Source of the DNA: Oegoconia quadripuncta
Lineage: Eukaryota; Arthropoda; Insecta; Lepidoptera; Autostichidae
Reading direction: 5' to 3'
Assembly (NCBI GenBank): GCA_949316235.1
Contig: OX438743.1
Coordinates: forward strand, 33,883,242 to 33,947,241
Length of the DNA stretch: 64,000 nt
The notes beneath the pieces are model-generated. The model was not told where the DNA came from and did not search any database. It saw only the letters and a list, made by a program, of their open reading frames with translations. Both the position numbers and the translations under genes were made by a program. Every line of letters begins with the position of its first letter. Position 1 is the stretch's first letter. This document shows positions 3,013 through 60,374 of the stretch, in pieces.

Positions 3013-3033
3013 TATAAAATACAATAATTCATT

Positions 3034-3095
3034 CCTTATTTAAAAAGAAATCTTAATTTAAATTTTGAGGGCGCCACTGGACGGAATAATCCCTC
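3034..3095 (-). mobile_element. piggyBac-like MITE, one terminal part
   Basis: The sequence ends ACGGAATAATCCCTC and then TTAA (3096-3099). It matches the right half of the complete element at 58325-58525, which is bracketed by TTAA on both sides. Only one end is present here. Confidence 0.5.
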
Positions 3096-3099
3096 TTAA

Positions 3100-6435: not shown

Positions 6436-6733
6436 ATTCTCTTTTTATGTCCCTATAAAAAATATATATAAATATAAAATATCCTTGGACATGTACAGAC
6501 AGCGCCAACTAGTTCCACACTAGGCTTGTGTTGTGGATACCAGATAGTTGATACACTACACAAACTCATTTTTTTTGTAAATAAATACATATATAAATGA
6601 AAAACATCCATAACTCGGGTACACATGCCCGTATTCATCATACAAACATATGCCCCTAGCGGGATTCGAACCCGCGACCTTTTGGTATAGCAGCAGAGTT
6701 TCTAATCACTACACCAAACAGGTCGTCAACTCT
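6436..6733 (-). mobile_element. tRNA-derived SINE, family B
   Basis: On the minus strand it begins GACGACCTGTTTGGTGTAGT (A-box region). It carries the B-box in GCGGGTTCGAATCCCGCTAG and ends in an AT-rich tail with AATATTTATA-like repeats. The first ~80 bases fold like a tRNA, but the long unrelated body and multiple copies mark it as a SINE. Further copies are at 34245-34517 (minus), 49270-49563 (minus) and 29455-29665 (plus). Confidence 0.8.
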
Positions 6734-6895: not shown

Positions 6896-7042
6896 CTGGA
6901 AAAAAACATATTTCTACAACATAATACTTTAGGAATGGGGAAAACATGTCAAGAGAGAGGAAATAGGTAACACAAAATGTCAATAGCAAACTTATTTCTT
7001 TTTGTCTCACCTACTCGACTGTAATTACATATTAGGTCCTTA

Positions 7043-7445
7043 CCTATGAAATTGGCGTTTTGTATGAAGAATTTCATTAAGACTGTATTCTTCATACAAA
7101 CATTTTTGAAATTGTTTTGGGAACGGCAAATCCTAATTTAGCTAAACTTTTTGTGTATTATCGGATAACATTAATTTAAATATAGGCAGTCTTATTTTTT
7201 AAAAGTAACCGCTATATAAAAGTTTCTGCGAATCTAATAAATAATATGGGAAGCTCCTGAAAACAGCTGTGTTCAAGTTTTTTTTTATTATGTGATTTAG
7301 CTCAGACATTAAAAAATATATCGTGTGAAACCTTGAAAATATATTCTATTTTCCAAATAAAAAACCATATTTGGATATAGCTATAGAATCGTCGAAGTTG
7401 GTACATATTATGATTAATGAAGAAAAAAATCTCCAATTTCATAGG
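7043..7445 (+). mobile_element. Tc1/mariner-like MITE, copy 1
   Basis: A 403-bp element that begins CCTATGAAATTGGCGTTTTG, ends CCAATTTCATAGG and is flanked by TA on both sides (7041-7042, 7446-7447). Its interior is non-coding. An inverted-orientation relative at 14403-14777 shares the interior, including AAACATTTTTGAAATTG-like and GTGATTTAGCTCAGA-like stretches. Confidence 0.75.
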
Positions 7446-14402: not shown

Positions 14403-14777
14403 CCTATGAAATTGGAGATTTTTTTCTTACGATTTTCAAAGCTATTTCCAAATTTGTTTTTTATGTGGAAAATGGAATATATTTTCAAGGTTTCACATGA
14501 AATATTTTTTAATTTCTGGGCTAAATCACATAATAAAAAAAAATGTAACAGAGCTCTTTTCATGTGCTTCCCATAATCACTTCTTAGATTCGGCGAAACT
14601 TTTAAAAAGCGATTACTTTTAAAAATTAACATTGCCTATAGTTAACTTAATGTAATCCAATAATACACACAAAGTTTAGCTAAATTTGGATTTGCGTTCC
14701 CAACAAAAAATCAAAAATGTTTGTATGGAGAAAACAGTCTTAATGAAATTCTTCATACAACACGCCAATTTCAGAGG
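14403..14777 (-). mobile_element. Tc1/mariner-like MITE, copy 2
   Basis: A 375-bp relative of 7043-7445 in opposite orientation. It has ends CCTATGAAATTGGAG and CGCCAATTTCAGAGG and flanking TA at 14401-14402 and 14778-14779. The open frame 14354-14632 falls inside it and is a by-product. Confidence 0.7.
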
Positions 14778-15126
14778 TAACCTATTATAAGTAACCTAAT
14801 ATTATTATTTATTTTCCACAAGGTACACTGGTACATTTACTACCTTGAAAATTAGTCTCATATTCATCGTTCTTCCTCATTTCCAAGTATCTACCTAAAT
14901 GTAGGTTGTCAGAAAGACTATCCCAGTAGGCGTAAAACTCTCGATCATTATTAGCTAACAGACTTAATGATAATTCCTGTCACCTATTTATGATAATCAT
15001 AAATGCCGCAGCTAGTGACGCGTCATTTTAGGATTTTCCTCGATGATAACCACCATGACTATAAATTCAAAGAAAAGTATTAAGAATTACATAATATTCT
15101 TTATTAATAAAGAAATATATATAAAT

Positions 15127-34244: not shown

Positions 34245-34517
34245 AATAATAATAATAATAAATAAATATCCTTCATACATCGCCATCTAGTTCCACAGTA
34301 AGCAACTATAGGCTTGTGTTGTGGACACCAGATGGTTGATATACCACATAAATATATTTTTTTTTAAATAAATATCTACTTATTATAAATGAAAACATCC
34401 ATGACTCGGGTACACATGTCCGTATTCATCACACAAACATATGCCCCTAGCGGGATTCGAACCTGCAACCTTTTGGTATAGTGGCAGAGTTGCTAACCAC
34501 TACACCAAACAGGTCGT
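34245..34517 (-). mobile_element. tRNA-derived SINE, family B
   Basis: Head (minus): GACGACCTGTTTGGTGTAGT, then GCGGGTTC...GAATCCCGCTAG with one B-box change (AACCTGCAACC on the plus strand). The body matches 6436-6733 and 49270-49563, and the tail is (ATT)n. Confidence 0.8.
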
Positions 34518-34519
34518 CA

Positions 34520-35964: not shown

Positions 35965-36217
35965 CAGGATCATTATAAATAAATAAATAAATATTTCGGA
36001 CACTTACGCCAATCATCTAGTCCCAAACTAAGCAAAGCTTGTACTAAGGATACTAGATAACGGATAAACATACATAAATATTTATATAAACATCCATGAT
36101 TCAGGAATAAATGTTCATATTCATCACACAAACATTTACCCGTCGCGGGATTCGAACCCGCAATCGTTGGTTTCGCTGACACCTGACTGACTATCCACTA
36201 CACCAATCGGTCGTCTA
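35965..36217 (-). mobile_element. tRNA-derived SINE, family B2
   Basis: Minus-strand head: GACGACCGATTGGTGTAGTG and the B-box GCGGGTTCGAATCCCGCGAC. The body differs from family B (AGTCCCAAACTAAGCAAAGC on the plus strand). The tail is (ATTT)n. A 3'-end fragment of the same subfamily is at 49985-50070 (plus). Confidence 0.75.
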
Positions 36218-36310: not shown

Positions 36311-36345
36311 ATCTGGGGGCACGGCCGTGCCCCCACCAAGTCGAG
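36311..36345. repeat. GC-rich perfect palindrome
   Basis: GGGGGCACGGCCGTGCCCCC at about 36315-36334, a perfect 20-base palindrome. A one-mismatch version is at about 46327-46346. Both belong to repeat sequences with CCAAG(A/T)CGAGCAAA-like flanks. Confidence 0.6.
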
Positions 36346-36389
36346 CAAAAAAGCGTCACGGCCGTACCATCCTTTTCTCGAAGCAATTC

Positions 36390-36640
36390 AGACCATTTTC
36401 GACCCCCTGTAACTTCGTTGTGGATAAAAATAGAAGACTGAAATTTTCAGTAACTATGCAGGCATTGTAAAGACACGTATATTTAAAATTTCATTCAATT
36501 TGAACCAGTATTTTTAAGAATTATAACGGGTCAAATTTCTTAATTTTGTCACTCACTGACTCACCGATCATCAAAATTCTAAGGCACTTCTAGCAGACCT
36601 AGAAGCTTCAAATTTGGAATATAAATAGTGTTTGGTGTAT
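36390..36640 (+). repeat. Unclassified repeat-like segment
   Basis: CTGAAATTTTCAGTAACTAT, AACGGGTCAAATTTCTTAAT and AAGGCACTTCTAGCAGACCT look like a dispersed lepidopteran repeat from memory. There is no second copy in this window to confirm it. Confidence 0.3.
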
Positions 36641-36739
36641 GAATCAAGGAAAAACTAAAAAATCTAGAAAAGACAGCAAAGAAAATTAAGCCCATACAGC
36701 CAAGTCTTCAGTTAATTAAATTTTTCAATATTGGCTTTA

Positions 36740-36912
36740 TTCGTAACGATGTTTTATTATTTTACGGCAAAAATTGTAACATCAAAGCCTCCCAGAAAAA
36801 CCCATACAGACAGGGAGTGGGCTCTTAGAAAAACTGTAGCTGAAGCTCAAGAAGTAGTACCGGAAAAGAGAAAACGGAAGGCTACCTACAAAAATAAGAA
36901 AAGTTCATAAGT
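36740..36912 (+). pseudogene. Basic coding-like remnant beside the palindrome
   Basis: The plus frame reads KPPRKTHTDREWALRKTVAE, AQEVVPEKRKRKATYKNKKS, then a stop at 36908-36910. A second, decayed version follows (RERALRKFVAG, then VEGTEKEKSRTVYKIQK), so the segment is a direct repeat of about 95 bases. No family is recognised. The position right against the left arm of the palindrome suggests one composite mobile element, but this is inference. Confidence 0.3.
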
Positions 36913-37026
36913 CAGAGAGAGGGCTTTAAGAAAATTCGTTGCTGGTAGATATACATATATACAATAAGTAGAAGGTACCGAAAAGGAAAAAAGTAGAACT
37001 GTCTACAAAATACAAAAAGAAATGAG

Positions 37027-37721
37027 ATCCCATCAAAAACAATACTTGTCAAAAAAACCAAGTCTCGCAACTCAGTTGTTCTGCGGTAAAAAGTTGTGAG
37101 ATCCATGTAATACCAAGTCGGTTGTTAATTTATTCAGTCTCTACTTAAACGACTTTCTGTCTTAATACGTCCAGTCTCTAAGACCACGATCGTGGTCCAT
37201 AACAATTGAAAATCAATTATGTCTGGAATCTCCGTACTCGAAGCATTAAGTTGTTACGTAATAATTAACAGCATCTTATAGTGACGCATATCAATACCAA
37301 AATTCTTTAATGTTTTATATAAATATATTGAGACTTGGCCATCGCCTGAAAAGACGTGTAAATTCAATCGCCTGATAACACATGTAAATTCAATTATTTA
37401 GTGCGATGGCCAAGTCTCGATATATTTATATAAAACATTAAAGAATTTTAATATTGATATGCGTCACTATAAGATGCTGTTAATTATTACGTAACAACTT
37501 AATGCTTCGAGTACGGAGATTCCAGACACAATTGATTTTCAATTGTTATGGACCACGATCGTGGTCTTAGAGACTGGACGTATTAACACAGAAAGTCGCT
37601 TAAGTAGAGACTGAATAAATTAACAACCGACTTGGTATTACATGGATCTCACAACTTTTTACCGCAGAACAACTGAGTTGCGAGACTTGGTTTTTTTGAC
37701 AAGTATTGTTTTTGATGGGAT
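37027..37721. repeat. 695-bp near-perfect palindrome (319-bp arms)
   Basis: Left arm 37027-37345 and right arm 37403-37721 pair base for base with no net indel and about six substitutions (about 98%). The 57-base spacer contains two copies of a (C/A)GTGTAAATTCAAT-like word. Each arm also holds the small palindrome GACCACGATCGTGGTC. A transcript of either strand would form a very long hairpin. No terminal target duplication was found, and the outer bases next to each arm do not match. A long inverted-repeat transposon, a recent inverted duplication and an assembly fold-back are all possible. Confidence 0.85.
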
Positions 37722-37729
37722 TTACTTTA

Positions 37730-38540
37730 AAAGCAATTTCAATTAATTCAAATAAAAGCAAAAAATCTTTAACATTGGAAATAATATTCGATTTACGGCA
37801 AAAGGCAAAATCTTTGTTTGGTGGATTTGATTAATATGTCGAAACTTTGTATATCGAATTTCATTTCACTAGAAACGTTTTCGAGAATCGTTGCACCTAT
37901 TTTTGTTTCACGTAATTTTCAATCCATACCTTTTTATATAATCAAACAACTGTTCACCGAAAAGCAGTTCGAATTTGTCTCAGCTTTCACACAAGAATTA
38001 GTTTATCAATTGATTGATAGATGATTTAGAAAATTTACGTTTCTTTATTATCACGAACAGCGTTTTGTCACAGCCCAATTTACTAAATAACATTCGCCTG
38101 TAAATCGGGCTTTAGCGTCGTCCAGCCTCCGTCGTTCTGACTACGCTCGGCCGCCTGCTCCTCACTGCTTGTGGGTTAGCACCGCTCCCCATTTGCGCTT
38201 CCACTTAACAAAAAACTCTCTAGGGGTAGGGCAGACAAGACCAAGTGGAAAAAGGGTGCCCTGAGTCAGTTCCGTTAGAGATTAATCTTACAATGATTCA
38301 TTCATTTGGAACTTAAACACCCAAATATTAAAGCTGGGGAAAATCCATGTACTTAGATGAATCGAACTTTCGTTGAAACGTACTACCGTTGAATGAAGTT
38401 TCGATATAAAGATAATTATCGGAACTGTTATAATATTAATTAAATTGAAGTAAACTTTTGTGCACGTTACATAAGTTTTTAATTTTTCATGCTCCAACAA
38501 ATGTTATTGTCCAACAAATGTAGGTGTGGTGCAAGCGGTG
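37730..38540. other. Unassigned stretch
   Basis: Mostly AT-rich. A GC-richer patch at about 38100-38200 (CGTCGTCCAGCCTCCGTCGT) is not recognised. Short frames at 37818-38024 and 38288-38500 lack support. Confidence 0.4.
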
Positions 38541-38544
38541 ACTG

Positions 38545-39880
38545 TGTATGAAGTGAAGACGGGCGTACAAAGTACGAAGATTGGAAAATCTGTAGGACCT
38601 GATGGTATACCAGTGGAAGTATGGAAGTTTTTAAAAGCAGATGGATGTGGCTGACTTTATTCTTCAACAAGTTGTTACAACAGGAGGTGATGCTGGAGGA
38701 ATGGTGCAACAGTTTCCTGGTGTCCATTTTTAAGAACAAGGGTGATGTACAAGACTGTAATAGCTATAGAGGAATAAAGCTCATTTCACTTAGCATGAAG
38801 ATTTGGGAGAAAGTGATTGCGAGCCAAATGAGAGAGAAGAGTAGGGTAACCCAGAACCAGTTCGGGTTTATGGCCGGTCGAGGAATAACGGACGCCACAT
38901 TCGCACTACGCCAATTGTGCTAAAAGTACAAACGTGCGCATAAAAACCTGCACATAGTGTTCATTAACCTGAAGAAAAAGTACGACCGGGTACCTAGCAA
39001 GATTCTGTGGTGAACTTTGAAAGAGAAAGATGTGCCTGAGAAGTACGTGCGGCTTGTACATTCCATGTACAGTCGAGCTGGTACAAAAGTCCGGTCGGAA
39101 GCTGGCGTTGCCGACAGGTTCGATGTGGCGGTGGGCTTACACCAGGGATCGGCTTTAAGCCCGTATCTGTTCCTCCTGATTATGGACGCACTGACATCAA
39201 ACTGGTGTATGCTGTTCGCCGACGATATAGTCCTTGTCCAGAGCAGACAAAGACTGGAGAGTGTCGGATTGAAGATCAGCAGAATGAAAAGCGAACACCT
39301 GTTCTGCAACTTTGGTGGTCCATCCAGTTTTTCCAATATAGCCTTAAGCGGGGAGTTTCTACCAACCTGCTCAAATTTCCGGTATCTAGGTTCCTTACAT
39401 CAGAAAGACGGCAACATTGACCAGGACGTGAGAAACTGGATAAATGCAGGATGGATGAAATGGCGACAGGTTTCGGGGACTGTGACCCAAGGATGCCCCT
39501 GAAACTCAAGGAGAAAATTTACAAGACCATTATAAGACTTGTCACCATGTATGAATCTGAATGTTGGGCAATGAAAGTGACGGATGAAAGTAGAATGTGA
39601 AAAAAAATGAAATGTGGCGGAGATGAGGATGCTAAGATTGATGTATTGTGTGACTAGAATGGCTAAAATCAGGAATGAGTAAATCAGAGGAAGTTTGAAA
39701 GTGGCACAAATGACAGAAAAGTTGAGGAGTAATAGACTGCGTGAGGAATGATATGTGTGTGGAAGGGGTGAGTACGGAGATGACGGCTGATAGAGGAGAG
39801 TAGAAGACGAAGGCATGTTATGCCGATCCCACCTAGAGTGGGATAAGGGCAGGAAAATTATGATATAAAATTCTGCAAAG
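38545..39880 (+). mobile_element. RTE-like LINE reverse transcriptase, decayed
   Basis: The reading starts with KIGKSVGPDGIPVEVWKFLK. After a frameshift near 38640 it continues as NSYRGIKLISLSMKIWEKVI, QNQFGFMAGRGITDATFALR, GLHQGSALSPYLFLLIMDAL and CMLFADDIVLVQSR (the catalytic FADD). It then gives LGSLHQKDGNIDQDVRNWIN and ESECWAMKVTDESRM. In-frame stops lie at 38921 and near 39011. A short deletion sits between the QGS block and FADD (LTSN-WCM). The domain order is that of RTE-type pols; the endonuclease is missing. It ends near the HLEWDKGRK block. No active enzyme is possible. Confidence 0.85.
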
Positions 39881-43011: not shown

Positions 43012-43508
43012 CAAGGTGCTGCCCTTGGAGCTGTATGTGGCTGAACAGGCTGAAAGTCATAAGCGCCGTAAATATGCATCTCTATCTATAAACCACGAGT
43101 TTGCGGCGCTTGCAGTGGACACATTGGGCCCTTGGTCGTCTGACATAAAAAATTGTAAAAGATTTGTGTATTAGACTGCTTCACGCCTTCAGAGAGCTGG
43201 CGCCTACTTTGCTCAGCAGCTGAGCTTATGTATTCAGCGGGGAAATGGCGCTAGCGTGCTATATGCATCTCTATCTATAAACCACGAGTTTGCGGCGCTT
43301 GCAGTGGACACATTGGGCCCTTGGTCGTCTGACATAAAAAATTGTAAAAGATTTGTGTATTTGACTGCTCCACGCCTTCAGAGAGCTGGCGCCTACTTTG
43401 CTCAGCAGCTGAGCTTATGTATTCAGCGGGGAAATGGCGCTAGCGTGCTATATACCTCACGGAAGCGAGTTGTACGGGCTTATTTTTACTATAAGATATA
43501 TTTTTATT
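43012..43508 (+). pseudogene. Retroelement pol C-terminal module with in-frame tandem duplication
   Basis: The frame reads KVLPLELYVAEQAESHKRRK, YASLSINHEFAALAVDTLGP, RAGAYFAQQLSLCIQRGNGA and SVLY, and then repeats the block from YASLS onward. The VDTLGPW ... FAQQLSLCIQRGN.ASVL pattern resembles, from memory, the C-terminal end of certain insect reverse-transcriptase polyproteins. A related remnant is at 60670-61000. The duplicated unit is 189 bp (43072-43260 and 43261-43449), exactly 63 codons. The two copies differ by only about two bases. Copy 1 has a TAG in place of Leu at about 43171. No catalytic domain is present. Confidence 0.6.
43072..43449 (+). repeat. 189-bp tandem duplication, two units
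   Basis: Unit boundaries at 43072, 43261 and about 43450. The units are nearly identical, so the duplication is recent relative to the decay of neighbouring repeats. Confidence 0.9.
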
Positions 43509-45866: not shown

Positions 45867-45960
45867 GAAGCCTAATTCTCTTTACTTTAAATAACCGGTG
45901 CATCCAAGCATCTTTTAACTCTGGACAAATACGCCAGGTGTAACACATTCCAAAATACTA

Positions 45961-46228
45961 ATGCCACCAAAAACATTTCATGTAAAATGTTGCCAAGACG
46001 ACCACATAAGGTTTGCCCTGTGAAAAAGATATCAGATCTCATGTAGAGCCAAGCTTTTGAATCTACACGGCCTGACTCTACCAACCCCAACTTCAACAAA
46101 TTCTACATATCAGTAAATATGTACGGCTGGGCTGTTTCGTTACTTACTTCAGAAACTAAATATTCGCATCACCTCCAAGACGGTGCGAAATGTCTTGGCA
46201 ATATTTTACATGAAATGTTTTTGGTGGG
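45961..46228. repeat. Inverted repeat with 36-base arms
   Basis: CCACCAAAAACATTTCATGT ... TGCCAAGAC at about 45964-45999 pairs with about 46189-46226 with roughly two mismatches. It is probably the ends of a ~265-bp non-autonomous element. The frame at 45887-46099 is incidental. Confidence 0.5.
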
Positions 46229-46274
46229 ATTTCAGTTCTTTTTGTAAGTTGCTAGGCAGTCTTTTTAGTGTTTA

Positions 46275-46625
46275 TTTTTTTCTTCTTTTTTTTGGGGTGT
46301 AGGACTTCGCTTGACTCGTCTTGGCGGGGGCACTGCCGTGCCCCCAGATCAACAAGATGGCTGTCAGAGAAGTACTGATAATTAGCAGGAATAATTTATG
46401 AATCCTTGCAAAGGCAACCGCTGTTTGAGCAAACATATACACGGGGCTCCGGGACGCACGGAGGTGTAGATTTTGCCTCCTTACAGAGGAAACATACGCT
46501 GTGTGAATGCGCCCCGCTGATGCATAAACGTCATGTTCATATAATTCTTCAAAGCCGCAAATCTGAGCAGCAAATTGTAGGTTAGTGGCGATCACAATAT
46601 ATCGACAACGGGCGCAGTGTTACAG
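46275..46625 (-). repeat. Dispersed repeat J, copy 2, with GC palindrome
   Basis: It contains GTAGGACTTCGCTTGACTCG, the palindromic GGGGGCACTGCCGTGCCCCC and GCAAATTGTAGGTTAGTGGC. The 107-codon minus frame (46272-46595) spans it. That frame resembles text seen in other lepidopteran repeats, so I do not treat it as a gene. Confidence 0.4.
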
Positions 46626-49269: not shown

Positions 49270-49563
49270 TTATGTATAAATAAATAATAAATAATAATAA
49301 ATAAATATCCTTAGACATACACACAGCGCCATCTAGTTCCACAGTAAGCAACTATATGCTTGTGTTGTGGATACCAGATGGTTGATATAATACATAAATA
49401 CATTTTTTTTTGTAAATGAATACTTATTATAAATGTAAACATTCATAACTCGGGTACACATGTCCGTATTCATCACACAAACATCTGCCCCTAGCGGGAT
49501 TCGAACCCGCAACCTTTTGGTATAGTGGTCAGAGTCGCTAACCAGTACACCAAACAGGTCATC
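49270..49563 (-). mobile_element. tRNA-derived SINE, family B
   Basis: The full head GACCTGTTTGGTGTACTGGT and B-box GCGGGTTCGAATCCCGCTAG (minus) and the family body are present, and the tail is (ATTT/AAT)n. It closely matches 34245-34517. Confidence 0.8.
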
Positions 49564-50750: not shown

Positions 50751-50815
50751 CAATAACAATCAATATGGTCTATAGGCAAGTATGGGACTTGCCTACAGAC
50801 CATATTGATTGTTAT
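50751..50815. repeat. Hairpin with 29-bp stem, 7-base loop
   Basis: Arms AATAACAATCAATATGGTCT ATAGGCAAG and its complement differ at one position; the loop is TATGGGA. It is much longer-stemmed than chance would give and might be a short fold-back duplication or a small-RNA hairpin. Confidence 0.75.
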
Positions 50816-50819
50816 TTAG

Positions 50820-53894: not shown

Positions 53895-54012
53895 TAAGAG
53901 GGTTTATTCTCTACAGTGGCGCCCTCATTGAATAAATTAAGATATCTGTTTAAATATAGAATAAATAATAAAAATAGCTCTGACCTGCACACGAGAGGCT
54001 TCAAAGTTAAGT
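53895..54012 (+). mobile_element. piggyBac-like MITE, left half
   Basis: AAGAGGGTTTATTCTCTACA, GTGGCGCCCTCATTGAATAA and AGCTCTGACCTGCACACGAG match the first half of 58325-58525. The right half is lost. Confidence 0.6.
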
Positions 54013-58310: not shown

Positions 58311-58324
58311 ACATTTTGTATTAA

Positions 58325-58525
58325 GCGGGTTTATTCCGTCAAGTGGGGTCCGCATTGAATAAATTACGATTTCTTTTTAAATACAGAATATATCAAAAAA
58401 GTCGCTCTGACCTGCACTCGAGAAGCCTAAAAGCTAATTCAGAGCGATGTTTTTGATCTATTCGGTATTTAAAAAGAAATTTTACTTTATCCAATGAATA
58501 ATGTCACTGTACGGAATAAACCCTC
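58325..58525. mobile_element. piggyBac-like MITE, complete
   Basis: A 201-bp element with TTAA at 58321-58324 and 58526-58529. Its ends are GCGGGTTTATTCCGT and ACGGAATAAACCCTC, and the arms are long and imperfect (about 90 bases, including CTTTTTAAATAC and CGCTCTGA). The TTAA target and end structure suggest a piggyBac-type donor; no transposase is present. Confidence 0.75.
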
Positions 58526-58552
58526 TTAATAGAAGGCCCAACTTCTTAATAG

Positions 58553-58874: not shown

Positions 58875-60077
58875 TCAATTGTCATCTGTATCAAAAAATT
58901 CCTTAATAGAATAAAATGTCTTTTCTACAAGAAAGTCAAATAACTTTCTCCTAAATTCAGAAAACTGGGTGCATTTCTTTAAATCTGGAGAAAGTTTATT
59001 ATAAATTTTTGGGGCCATTGCAAACACACTATTTACAAATAGAGTTGTTTTGGCTGGTTTATGCTGGAGCTGGTCCTTACGTCGTGCGCTCAAAATATTA
59101 GGGAACAGTTCAGGGTGGCGTCTAATGTAAAGCGCTATCTCAAATATGTATAATGATGTCAGCGTTAATATTTTGAGATTTTTGAAGAAGGGTCTGCAGC
59201 TATCCATTCTTTTCAAGCCACAGATTGATCGTATACAGCTTTTTTGTGCTATAAATACAGTGTCAATATTTACAGCATTCCCCCAGAAAATAATTCCATA
59301 TCTTAGCCTAGCAGCAACATATCCATGGTATGCTGTAATTACGGATTTTTGGTTTACAACTTTATTCAGCATCCGTAAAGCATAAGAAAACTGACAAATT
59401 TTACCACGTATAAATTCCAAATGTGATTGCCATTTCATATTATCATCAATAAATAGTCCCAGAAACTTTGTAGTCTTTGTTTCGCGAATCTCTTTACCGT
59501 CAAAGTTAATCTTAGTACCAAGTGATTGATTTGTCCTCTGTTTAAAATTCATAATCATTGTTTTTTCTAAATTTATACGTAAATTGTTAGTTTGGAGCCA
59601 TTCAATTATACTTGCAAGACTATTACTTATTTCATTTTCATTTTGATATACAACTGTACAATCATCTGCAAATAATACCATTAGGTTCTTTATTGCCATC
59701 GGTAGGTCATTTATATATATGAGGAACAGAAGTGGCCCCAGTACGCTACCTTGGGGAACTCCGAAAGTAACAGTTCGCTGAGAAGATGTATATAATTTCT
59801 CAACTCCAGTCTTAGTACATATTCTGTTGATTTGTGTAACTTGCATTCTATTAGTAAGATAGGATTCTAGTAAATTCAAGGAATTTCCTCGCAAGCCATA
59901 CATTTCTAATTTATTCAATAATATACTGTGTTTAACATAATCAAATGCTTTTGTCATATCTAAATATAGCGCAAATACTGGTTGTCTATTGTCCATTCTA
60001 GTATAGAAGGGGAAACTCACGGTATGCGGGTCAAACTCGCACTTGAGTTTGAACCGCACACCGTGAGTTTCCCACAA
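58875..60077 (-). CDS. Reverse transcriptase of a CR1/Jockey-group LINE, 5' truncated
   Basis: An uninterrupted 400-codon frame. Residues 39-46 LDMTKAFD (motif A with the first catalytic Asp), 106-115 GVPQGSVLGP and 136-139 FADD (catalytic pair) form the palm. They are followed by the NLRINLEKTMIMNF and TKFLGLFIDDNMKWQSHLEF thumb-side motifs. The C-terminal block has YGIIFWGNAVNIDTVFIAQK and MAPKIYNKLSPDLK. The fingers and the endonuclease are missing. The first ~25 residues, including the ATG, come from an adjacent hairpin (60010-60073) and are not LINE sequence, so the true join is near 60000. The frame has no stops, which points to a recent insertion. Whether it is expressed is unknown. 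Confidence 0.85.
   Translation of the reverse strand: MWETHGVRFKLKCEFDPHTVSFPFYTRMDNRQPVFALYLDMTKAFDYVKHSILLNKLEMYGLRGNSLNLLESYLTNRMQVTQINRICTKTGVEKLYTSSQRTVTFGVPQGSVLGPLLFLIYINDLPMAIKNLMVLFADDCTVVYQNENEISNSLASIIEWLQTNNLRINLEKTMIMNFKQRTNQSLGTKINFDGKEIRETKTTKFLGLFIDDNMKWQSHLEFIRGKICQFSYALRMLNKVVNQKSVITAYHGYVAARLRYGIIFWGNAVNIDTVFIAQKSCIRSICGLKRMDSCRPFFKNLKILTLTSLYIFEIALYIRRHPELFPNILSARRKDQLQHKPAKTTLFVNSVFAMAPKIYNKLSPDLKKCTQFSEFRRKLFDFLVEKTFYSIKEFFDTDDN
60010..60073. repeat. 64-base hairpin at the LINE 5' junction
   Basis: GGGAAACTCACGGTATGCGG GTCAAACTC pairs with GAGTTTGAACCGCACACCGT GAGTTTCCC, two mismatches in 28-29 pairs. It lies exactly at the truncated end of the LINE. Confidence 0.75.
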
Positions 60078-60374
60078 ATTTGTATGTAGTCATCCATCAC
60101 GGGAATCGAGTCTCGAATTGTAAGTTTGTAACCGCTACCTTTTTTTATGTGACATAACTACAAAATAACGATTTTCTGATTTATCCTTTGCTTCTTGCCA
60201 AATTTAAATTTCAATTAAAAAATGACAATCAATGCTAATACTTAAGTGGCGTAGTCTTCGTAAATCGAGAGAGGTTATAATATCGGTTGTGTGACCGAAT
60301 ATGAAGCACTCTAGGAAGCACCACGAGAATCTGGTGTGCTTGCATTGTAAATACACACTTCTTCACGTCTTCTA

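Follow-up and report, generated by a model that had tools for sequence, protein, structure and literature searches.

A near-perfect palindrome with 319-bp arms that appears to lie within a 1.4-kb Helitron-like element in a 64-kb window of moth DNA

Palindrome structure

The window analysed here is the whole 64-kb stretch of DNA, and all positions refer to it. It contains a palindrome whose two arms, at 37027-37345 and 37403-37721, are each 319 bp long and pair at a constant coordinate sum of 74748 in self-alignment. The arms differ at 6 of 319 positions (98.1% identity; five transitions and one transversion) and contain no indels relative to each other, confirming the anatomy proposed in an earlier note on this DNA (319 bp, ~98% identity, six substitutions, no indel and the same coordinate sum). 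They enclose a 57-nt spacer (37346-37402, no strand assigned), which overlaps a 26-bp unit present in 2.1 copies at 37341-37394. A perfect 16-bp palindrome, also without strand, is found within the arm at 37182-37197 and again at 37551-37566. The predicted RNA fold of 37020-37728 has a free energy of −556.4 kcal/mol, compared with a mean of −141.6 kcal/mol in shuffled sequences (s.d. 6, n = 20). Among inverted repeats with arms no more than 3 kb apart, this is the longest in the window; the inverted pair at 7040-7392 and 14429-14780, a dispersed repeat whose copies lie 7 kb apart, is longer (355 bp) but less well matched (87% identity).

No target duplication at the palindrome edges is convincing. 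Of the many offsets tried, the one with the best symmetric match gave the 5-bp AAAAG (37015-37019 and 37729-37733), whose left copy sits in sequence common to a second element described below. The earlier note had likewise reported that a target duplication was absent.

A shorter relative of the surrounding element

The palindrome looks like part of a 1.4-kb Helitron-like element rather than a free-standing inverted repeat, a context that the earlier note overlooked. This element (element A) spans 36311-37722 on the minus strand, with its 5′ tip at ~37720-37722 and its 3′ end at ~36311; these ends are approximate, being drawn from two copies. The second copy is a short relative (element B) at 45960-46349 on the plus strand, which carries inverted repeats of 40 bp (38/40 identical): the first forms its 5′ tip (45960-45999), and the second lies internally towards the 3′ end (46192-46231). 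The internal repeat is followed by a tail of 118 bp, ending in a hairpin block with the hairpin at 46326-46345.

Self-comparison of the 64-kb window by blastn with short words found three blocks that are collinear and in one orientation between A and B. The first joins the tip of A to B 45960-45987 (22/28 identical, E = 0.028) and is weak alone. The second pairs A 36998-37053 (minus strand, read from 37053 to 36998) with B 46204-46260 (46/57 identical, E = 7e-10), scoring 58 against a best of 35 in 500 shuffles, and the third pairs A 36311-36345 (minus strand, read from 36345 to 36311) with B 46315-46349 (32/35 identical, E = 7e-10), with a score of 56, where the highest of 500 shuffles reached 22. 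The second block includes the 3′ subterminal repeat and runs ~30 bp past the left edge of the palindrome, and therefore this edge is not an element end. On the right side the match between A and B stops at the palindrome edge, which we take as the 5′ end of element A. The palindrome had been said to have no recognised terminal signature; B has the same ends and likewise carries a hairpin-bearing 3′ tail on one side, and that statement does not hold.

Read in its own orientation (minus strand), element A begins with a 5′ arm at 37403-37721, in which the 5′ repeat is enlarged to 319 bp and whose tip is the part matched by B. Beyond the spacer follows a 3′ arm at 37027-37345, also on the minus strand, which contains the 3′ subterminal repeat and which, as polarity comparison with the flanks of B suggests, duplicates the 5′ arm in inverted orientation. 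The same repeats are thus 40 bp in B and about eight times as long, 319 bp, in A, where little space is left between them. The remainder is a 716-bp 3′ tail (36311-37026, minus strand), present on one side only. The tail carries blocks common with B at both ends and is without a match to B in between. A degenerate tandem duplication without assigned strand occupies ~36794-37019 of the tail, with a unit of ~110-120 bp and 64% identity over 126 columns (score of 29, compared with at most 24 in 1,000 shuffles).

The 3′ terminal block of A (36311-36345) consists of a GACTTGG box, a 20-bp GC hairpin (36315-36334) and AGAT. When the pattern of the GC hairpin was allowed up to three mismatches, it occurred at two places in the 64 kb, one in A and one in B, and in none of 100 shuffles. 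The fold of the A hairpin was equalled or beaten by 6 of 200 shuffles, and that of the B hairpin was equalled by 5 of 200. The box (CCAAGTC/GACTTGG) occurs nine times in the window, eight of them in element A and five of these eight independent of mirror copying; shuffles of A contain a mean of 0.12 and a maximum of one (n = 200). In A it is found next to the hairpin and within the repeats, and the 5′ arm carries it at the inner end as part of an inverted exact 10-mer. This 10-mer, CCAAGTCTCG / CGAGACTTGG, brackets each arm, to an extent reached by 3 of 2,000 shuffles. At the inner end of the 3′ arm, the box-bearing 10-mer carries one of the six mismatches between the arms.

Coding capacity was not detected in A. 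A Pfam search of six frames in or next to the element gave no family above cut-off; a PF22389 hit in these frames (E = 0.079, 13.8 bits against a cut-off of 27) was taken as chance. A search with a 75-aa frame across the 3′ hairpin gave no protein homologues.

Classification as a Helitron-like element

Elements A and B are likely to be non-autonomous Helitron-like elements of the Helitron2/Helentron/DINE-1/HINE type. The inverted repeats of both are placed asymmetrically, with one copy at the 5′ tip and the other set inward from the 3′ end, and both have a hairpin near the 3′ end, sharing the hairpin plus AGAT. In the available part of PMC3627910, Helitron2 is laid out in this way, with asymmetric terminal inverted repeats of which the 3′ one lies upstream of a hairpin, and that group usually lacks a target duplication; none at the palindrome edges is convincing here. 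The available text of PMC4067079 describes HINE/DINE-1 elements as non-autonomous Helentrons whose subterminal-repeat layout is like that of B. They resemble A and B in being non-coding and in having inverted repeats near the 5′ end and internally on the 3′ side, a 3′ palindrome and optional tandem repeats.

The fit is incomplete in the length of the repeats and their distance from the 3′ end, in the ends, in the target and in the 5′ hairpin; A is therefore filed here as what looks like a Helitron-like variant, with no subgroup fixed. In mite families of HINE/DINE-1, the same partial text gives repeats of 12-15 bp, compared with 40 bp in B and 319 bp in A, and places the 3′ repeat 38-60 bp from the 3′ end, compared with 118 bp in B and 716 bp in A (PMC4067079). 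It also gives a T-rich target, which is not seen in A or B; at its ends, each copy is readable as an insertion between A and T instead of at TT. The Helitron2 group, as far as its description in PMC3627910 is available, has repeats of 8-15 bp plus a 5′ hairpin. A 5′ hairpin with the 5′ repeat is not convincing in our elements: the fold of B was matched by 36 of 200 shuffles, and that of A (−1.9 kcal/mol), for which 1 of 200 shuffles was as good, is in a different register. A small hairpin seen by eye in the 5′ repeats of A and B is not the predicted fold of A and was not relied on. The ends of canonical Helitrons (Helitron1) were not found, as the 5′ end can be read as TC in A and TG in B and the shared 3′ end, CCCCCAGAT, is without CTRR.

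Lepidopteran Hel-2 Helitrons, in the accessible portion of their description, share with A and B the probable host order and likewise have a 3′ hairpin and inverted repeats in subterminal position, and A has a possible 5′-TC start; their 3′ CTRR is absent here (PMC4344730). Hel-2 was likened by description (PMC4344730), and Lep1 by name only. A further parallel in arrangement is with composite Helitron2-type elements of Fusarium oxysporum, which, according to the section of PMC5148889 available, resemble A in having duplicated 5′ ends and a single 3′ end. They differ from A in that their duplicated 5′ sequence is short (<200 bp), whereas that of A is inverted and reaches the 3′ repeat (PMC5148889).

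Origin of the long arms

Comparison with the flanks of B suggests which end of the element was duplicated. Beyond the 40-bp repeat, the arm of A matches the 5′ inner flank of B with a local score of 19, which none of 2,000 shuffles of B and none of 2,000 shuffles of A equalled. This flank was the best of 6,242 windows on both strands with A left out, by a small margin over the best unrelated window (score of 17). The 3′ inner flank of B gave no match to the arm in either orientation: when it was reverse-complemented, 1,733 and 1,626 of 2,000 shuffles were as good, and in the other orientation 1,094 and 1,015 of 2,000 were. In a wider comparison of 37066-37345 with all of the B interior under stricter scoring, 8 of 300 shuffles were as good, compared with 300 of 300 in the other orientation. 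Because the arms match the 5′ but not the 3′ inner flank of B, the 3′ arm is the likely duplicate; the arms are thus probably 5′-end sequence, with the 3′ arm an inverted copy of the 5′ end, a reading drawn from two copies. An inverted duplication had been among the origins suggested in the earlier note, and this is borne out.

The best overall explanation, which we hold with about even confidence, is that the palindrome forms the body of a rolling-circle element, 1.4 kb long, that underwent a fold-back enlargement. The step itself, in which synthesis folds back and then re-enters at the 3′ repeat, has no direct trace in the sequence and is favoured tentatively, with confidence falling a little short of even. 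A nascent or displaced single strand would fold back at the present spacer and use its own 5′ half as a template as far as the 5′ tip. This would create a 3′ end equal to the normal 3′ repeat, which could then pair with the true 3′ repeat and re-enter the template, after which synthesis would end with the normal tail and hairpin. Fold-back copying of this kind would leave two equally long arms, one bounded by the 5′ tip and the other by the 3′ repeat, and a tail on one side only, as observed. Such a copy could presumably still move in trans via a RepHel protein, and the single strand of the element, or a transcript of it, would form one long hairpin. Models for human inverted copy number variants also exist (PMC10766186).

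The main rival to fold-back synthesis, credible but somewhat unlikely, is that an element inserted in opposite orientation into another copy of itself, losing the inner termini and keeping the outer ends, with gene conversion or recent age keeping the arms alike. Self-insertion has been proposed for the Fusarium Helitron2-type elements with several 5′ termini and a single 3′ terminus, in the part of that report available (PMC5148889), and the 10-mer CCAAGTCTCG / CGAGACTTGG brackets the arms as if the two bodies had been cut where the 3′ repeat starts. It requires, however, an insertion and then a deletion so exact and symmetric that the arms show no indel relative to each other and match in length to the base. 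A different rival sets the bounds of the element at the palindrome edges and treats it as a cut-and-paste foldback or MITE-type element. Foldback-type transposons consist largely of very long inverted repeats and have symmetric ends and target duplications. Near-perfect long inverted repeats and the lack of coding capacity in A would suit such an element, but A has a one-sided tail with a hairpin; its repeats do not form both ends, since homology to B continues for ~30 bp past the left edge, and the hairpin block is found 680 bp beyond it. With no convincing target duplication either, we regard this reading as most improbable.

The structure could also be a hairpin-RNA locus retained because its siRNAs would act against some target, a role that would be compatible with fold-back enlargement of a rolling-circle element. 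The predicted RNA fold is nearly perfect across the 319 bp, and the moth T. ni has both hairpin- and transposon-derived siRNAs. In that moth, however, 20.7-52.4% of the siRNAs map to transposons and <4.6% of the others to predicted hairpins (PMC5844692), and a transposon already explains the structure; selection for such a locus is very unlikely, and siRNA production is a possible consequence of the structure, not its reason. Least credible is a fold-back artefact of the assembly, as raised in the earlier note, or of the library. One edge of the palindrome corresponds to the 5′ end of a related, independent element and the other continues into homology with the 3′ tail of B. The arms flank a distinct spacer and differ by six substitutions (five transitions) and no indels.

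Within a Helitron-like element, repeats such as those of A, ending at the 5′ tip and the 3′ repeat, would be the fossil of a replication or recombination event. Their length sets A apart: published repeats across these types, as given in the partially available sources, are ~8-16 bp long, with 20-60 bp between them and the 3′ end, whereas the repeats of A are 319 bp long. In the literature covered, at the level of titles and abstract openings and mostly outside subscription journals, no Helitron with such arms was described. If further copies share the junction, A would belong to a mobile family, and rolling-circle transposition would tolerate long self-complementarity; such a family would give a concrete example of how short end repeats could grow into hairpin loci able to feed RNA silencing. 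A broader and unlikely proposal is that of a foldback rolling-circle, Helitron-like lineage, in which snap-back copying of the 5′ end, re-entering at the 3′ repeat, would turn short end repeats into a whole-body palindrome; the element would spread as a single strand complementary to itself and feed its own hairpin siRNAs.

Other features of the window

Searches with wider scope gave few matches. The 64-kb window contains no match to Rfam at the gathering score and no tRNA genes. Annotated plasmid records gave no match, and 13 annotated phage records gave short matches only (E = 0.06-0.7), which were set aside. Four exact patterns from A and B had zero matches each in viral contigs, and one B pattern matched 23 bases of a single bacterial contig (L001) among genome contigs, which was taken as chance.

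Several other repeats and frames are present. A reverse-transcriptase frame of ~403-404 aa lies at 58875-60089 on the minus strand (PF00078, E = 2.3e-26). The frame at 58875-60086 has 6,236 protein matches, and among the 120 listed all six with a species name are from moths (Manduca sexta and Mythimna separata twice each, Heliothis virescens and 'Phthorimaea ope'); the frame is related to retrotransposon proteins of moths, which makes a lepidopteran origin of the window probable. A shorter PF00078 frame occupies 39014-39502. Inverted repeats of 79 bp (99% identity, 1,289 bp apart) at 68-1514 start with TAGTATAAGATCC and have TA-containing flanks, possibly marking a small terminal-inverted-repeat transposon. 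A self-complementary sequence of ~220 bp (74%) at 58316-58534 has kin at 53895-54010 and 3031-3099 and constitutes a MITE-like family. A dispersed repeat at 36084-36215, with related copies at 6581-6727, 34393-34518 and 49433-49563, resembles a tRNA-derived SINE. A tandem duplication with a 189-bp unit (98% identity) is found at 43072-43453, and a near-perfect hairpin with 30-bp arms (97% identity) and a 5-nt loop at 50752-50816.
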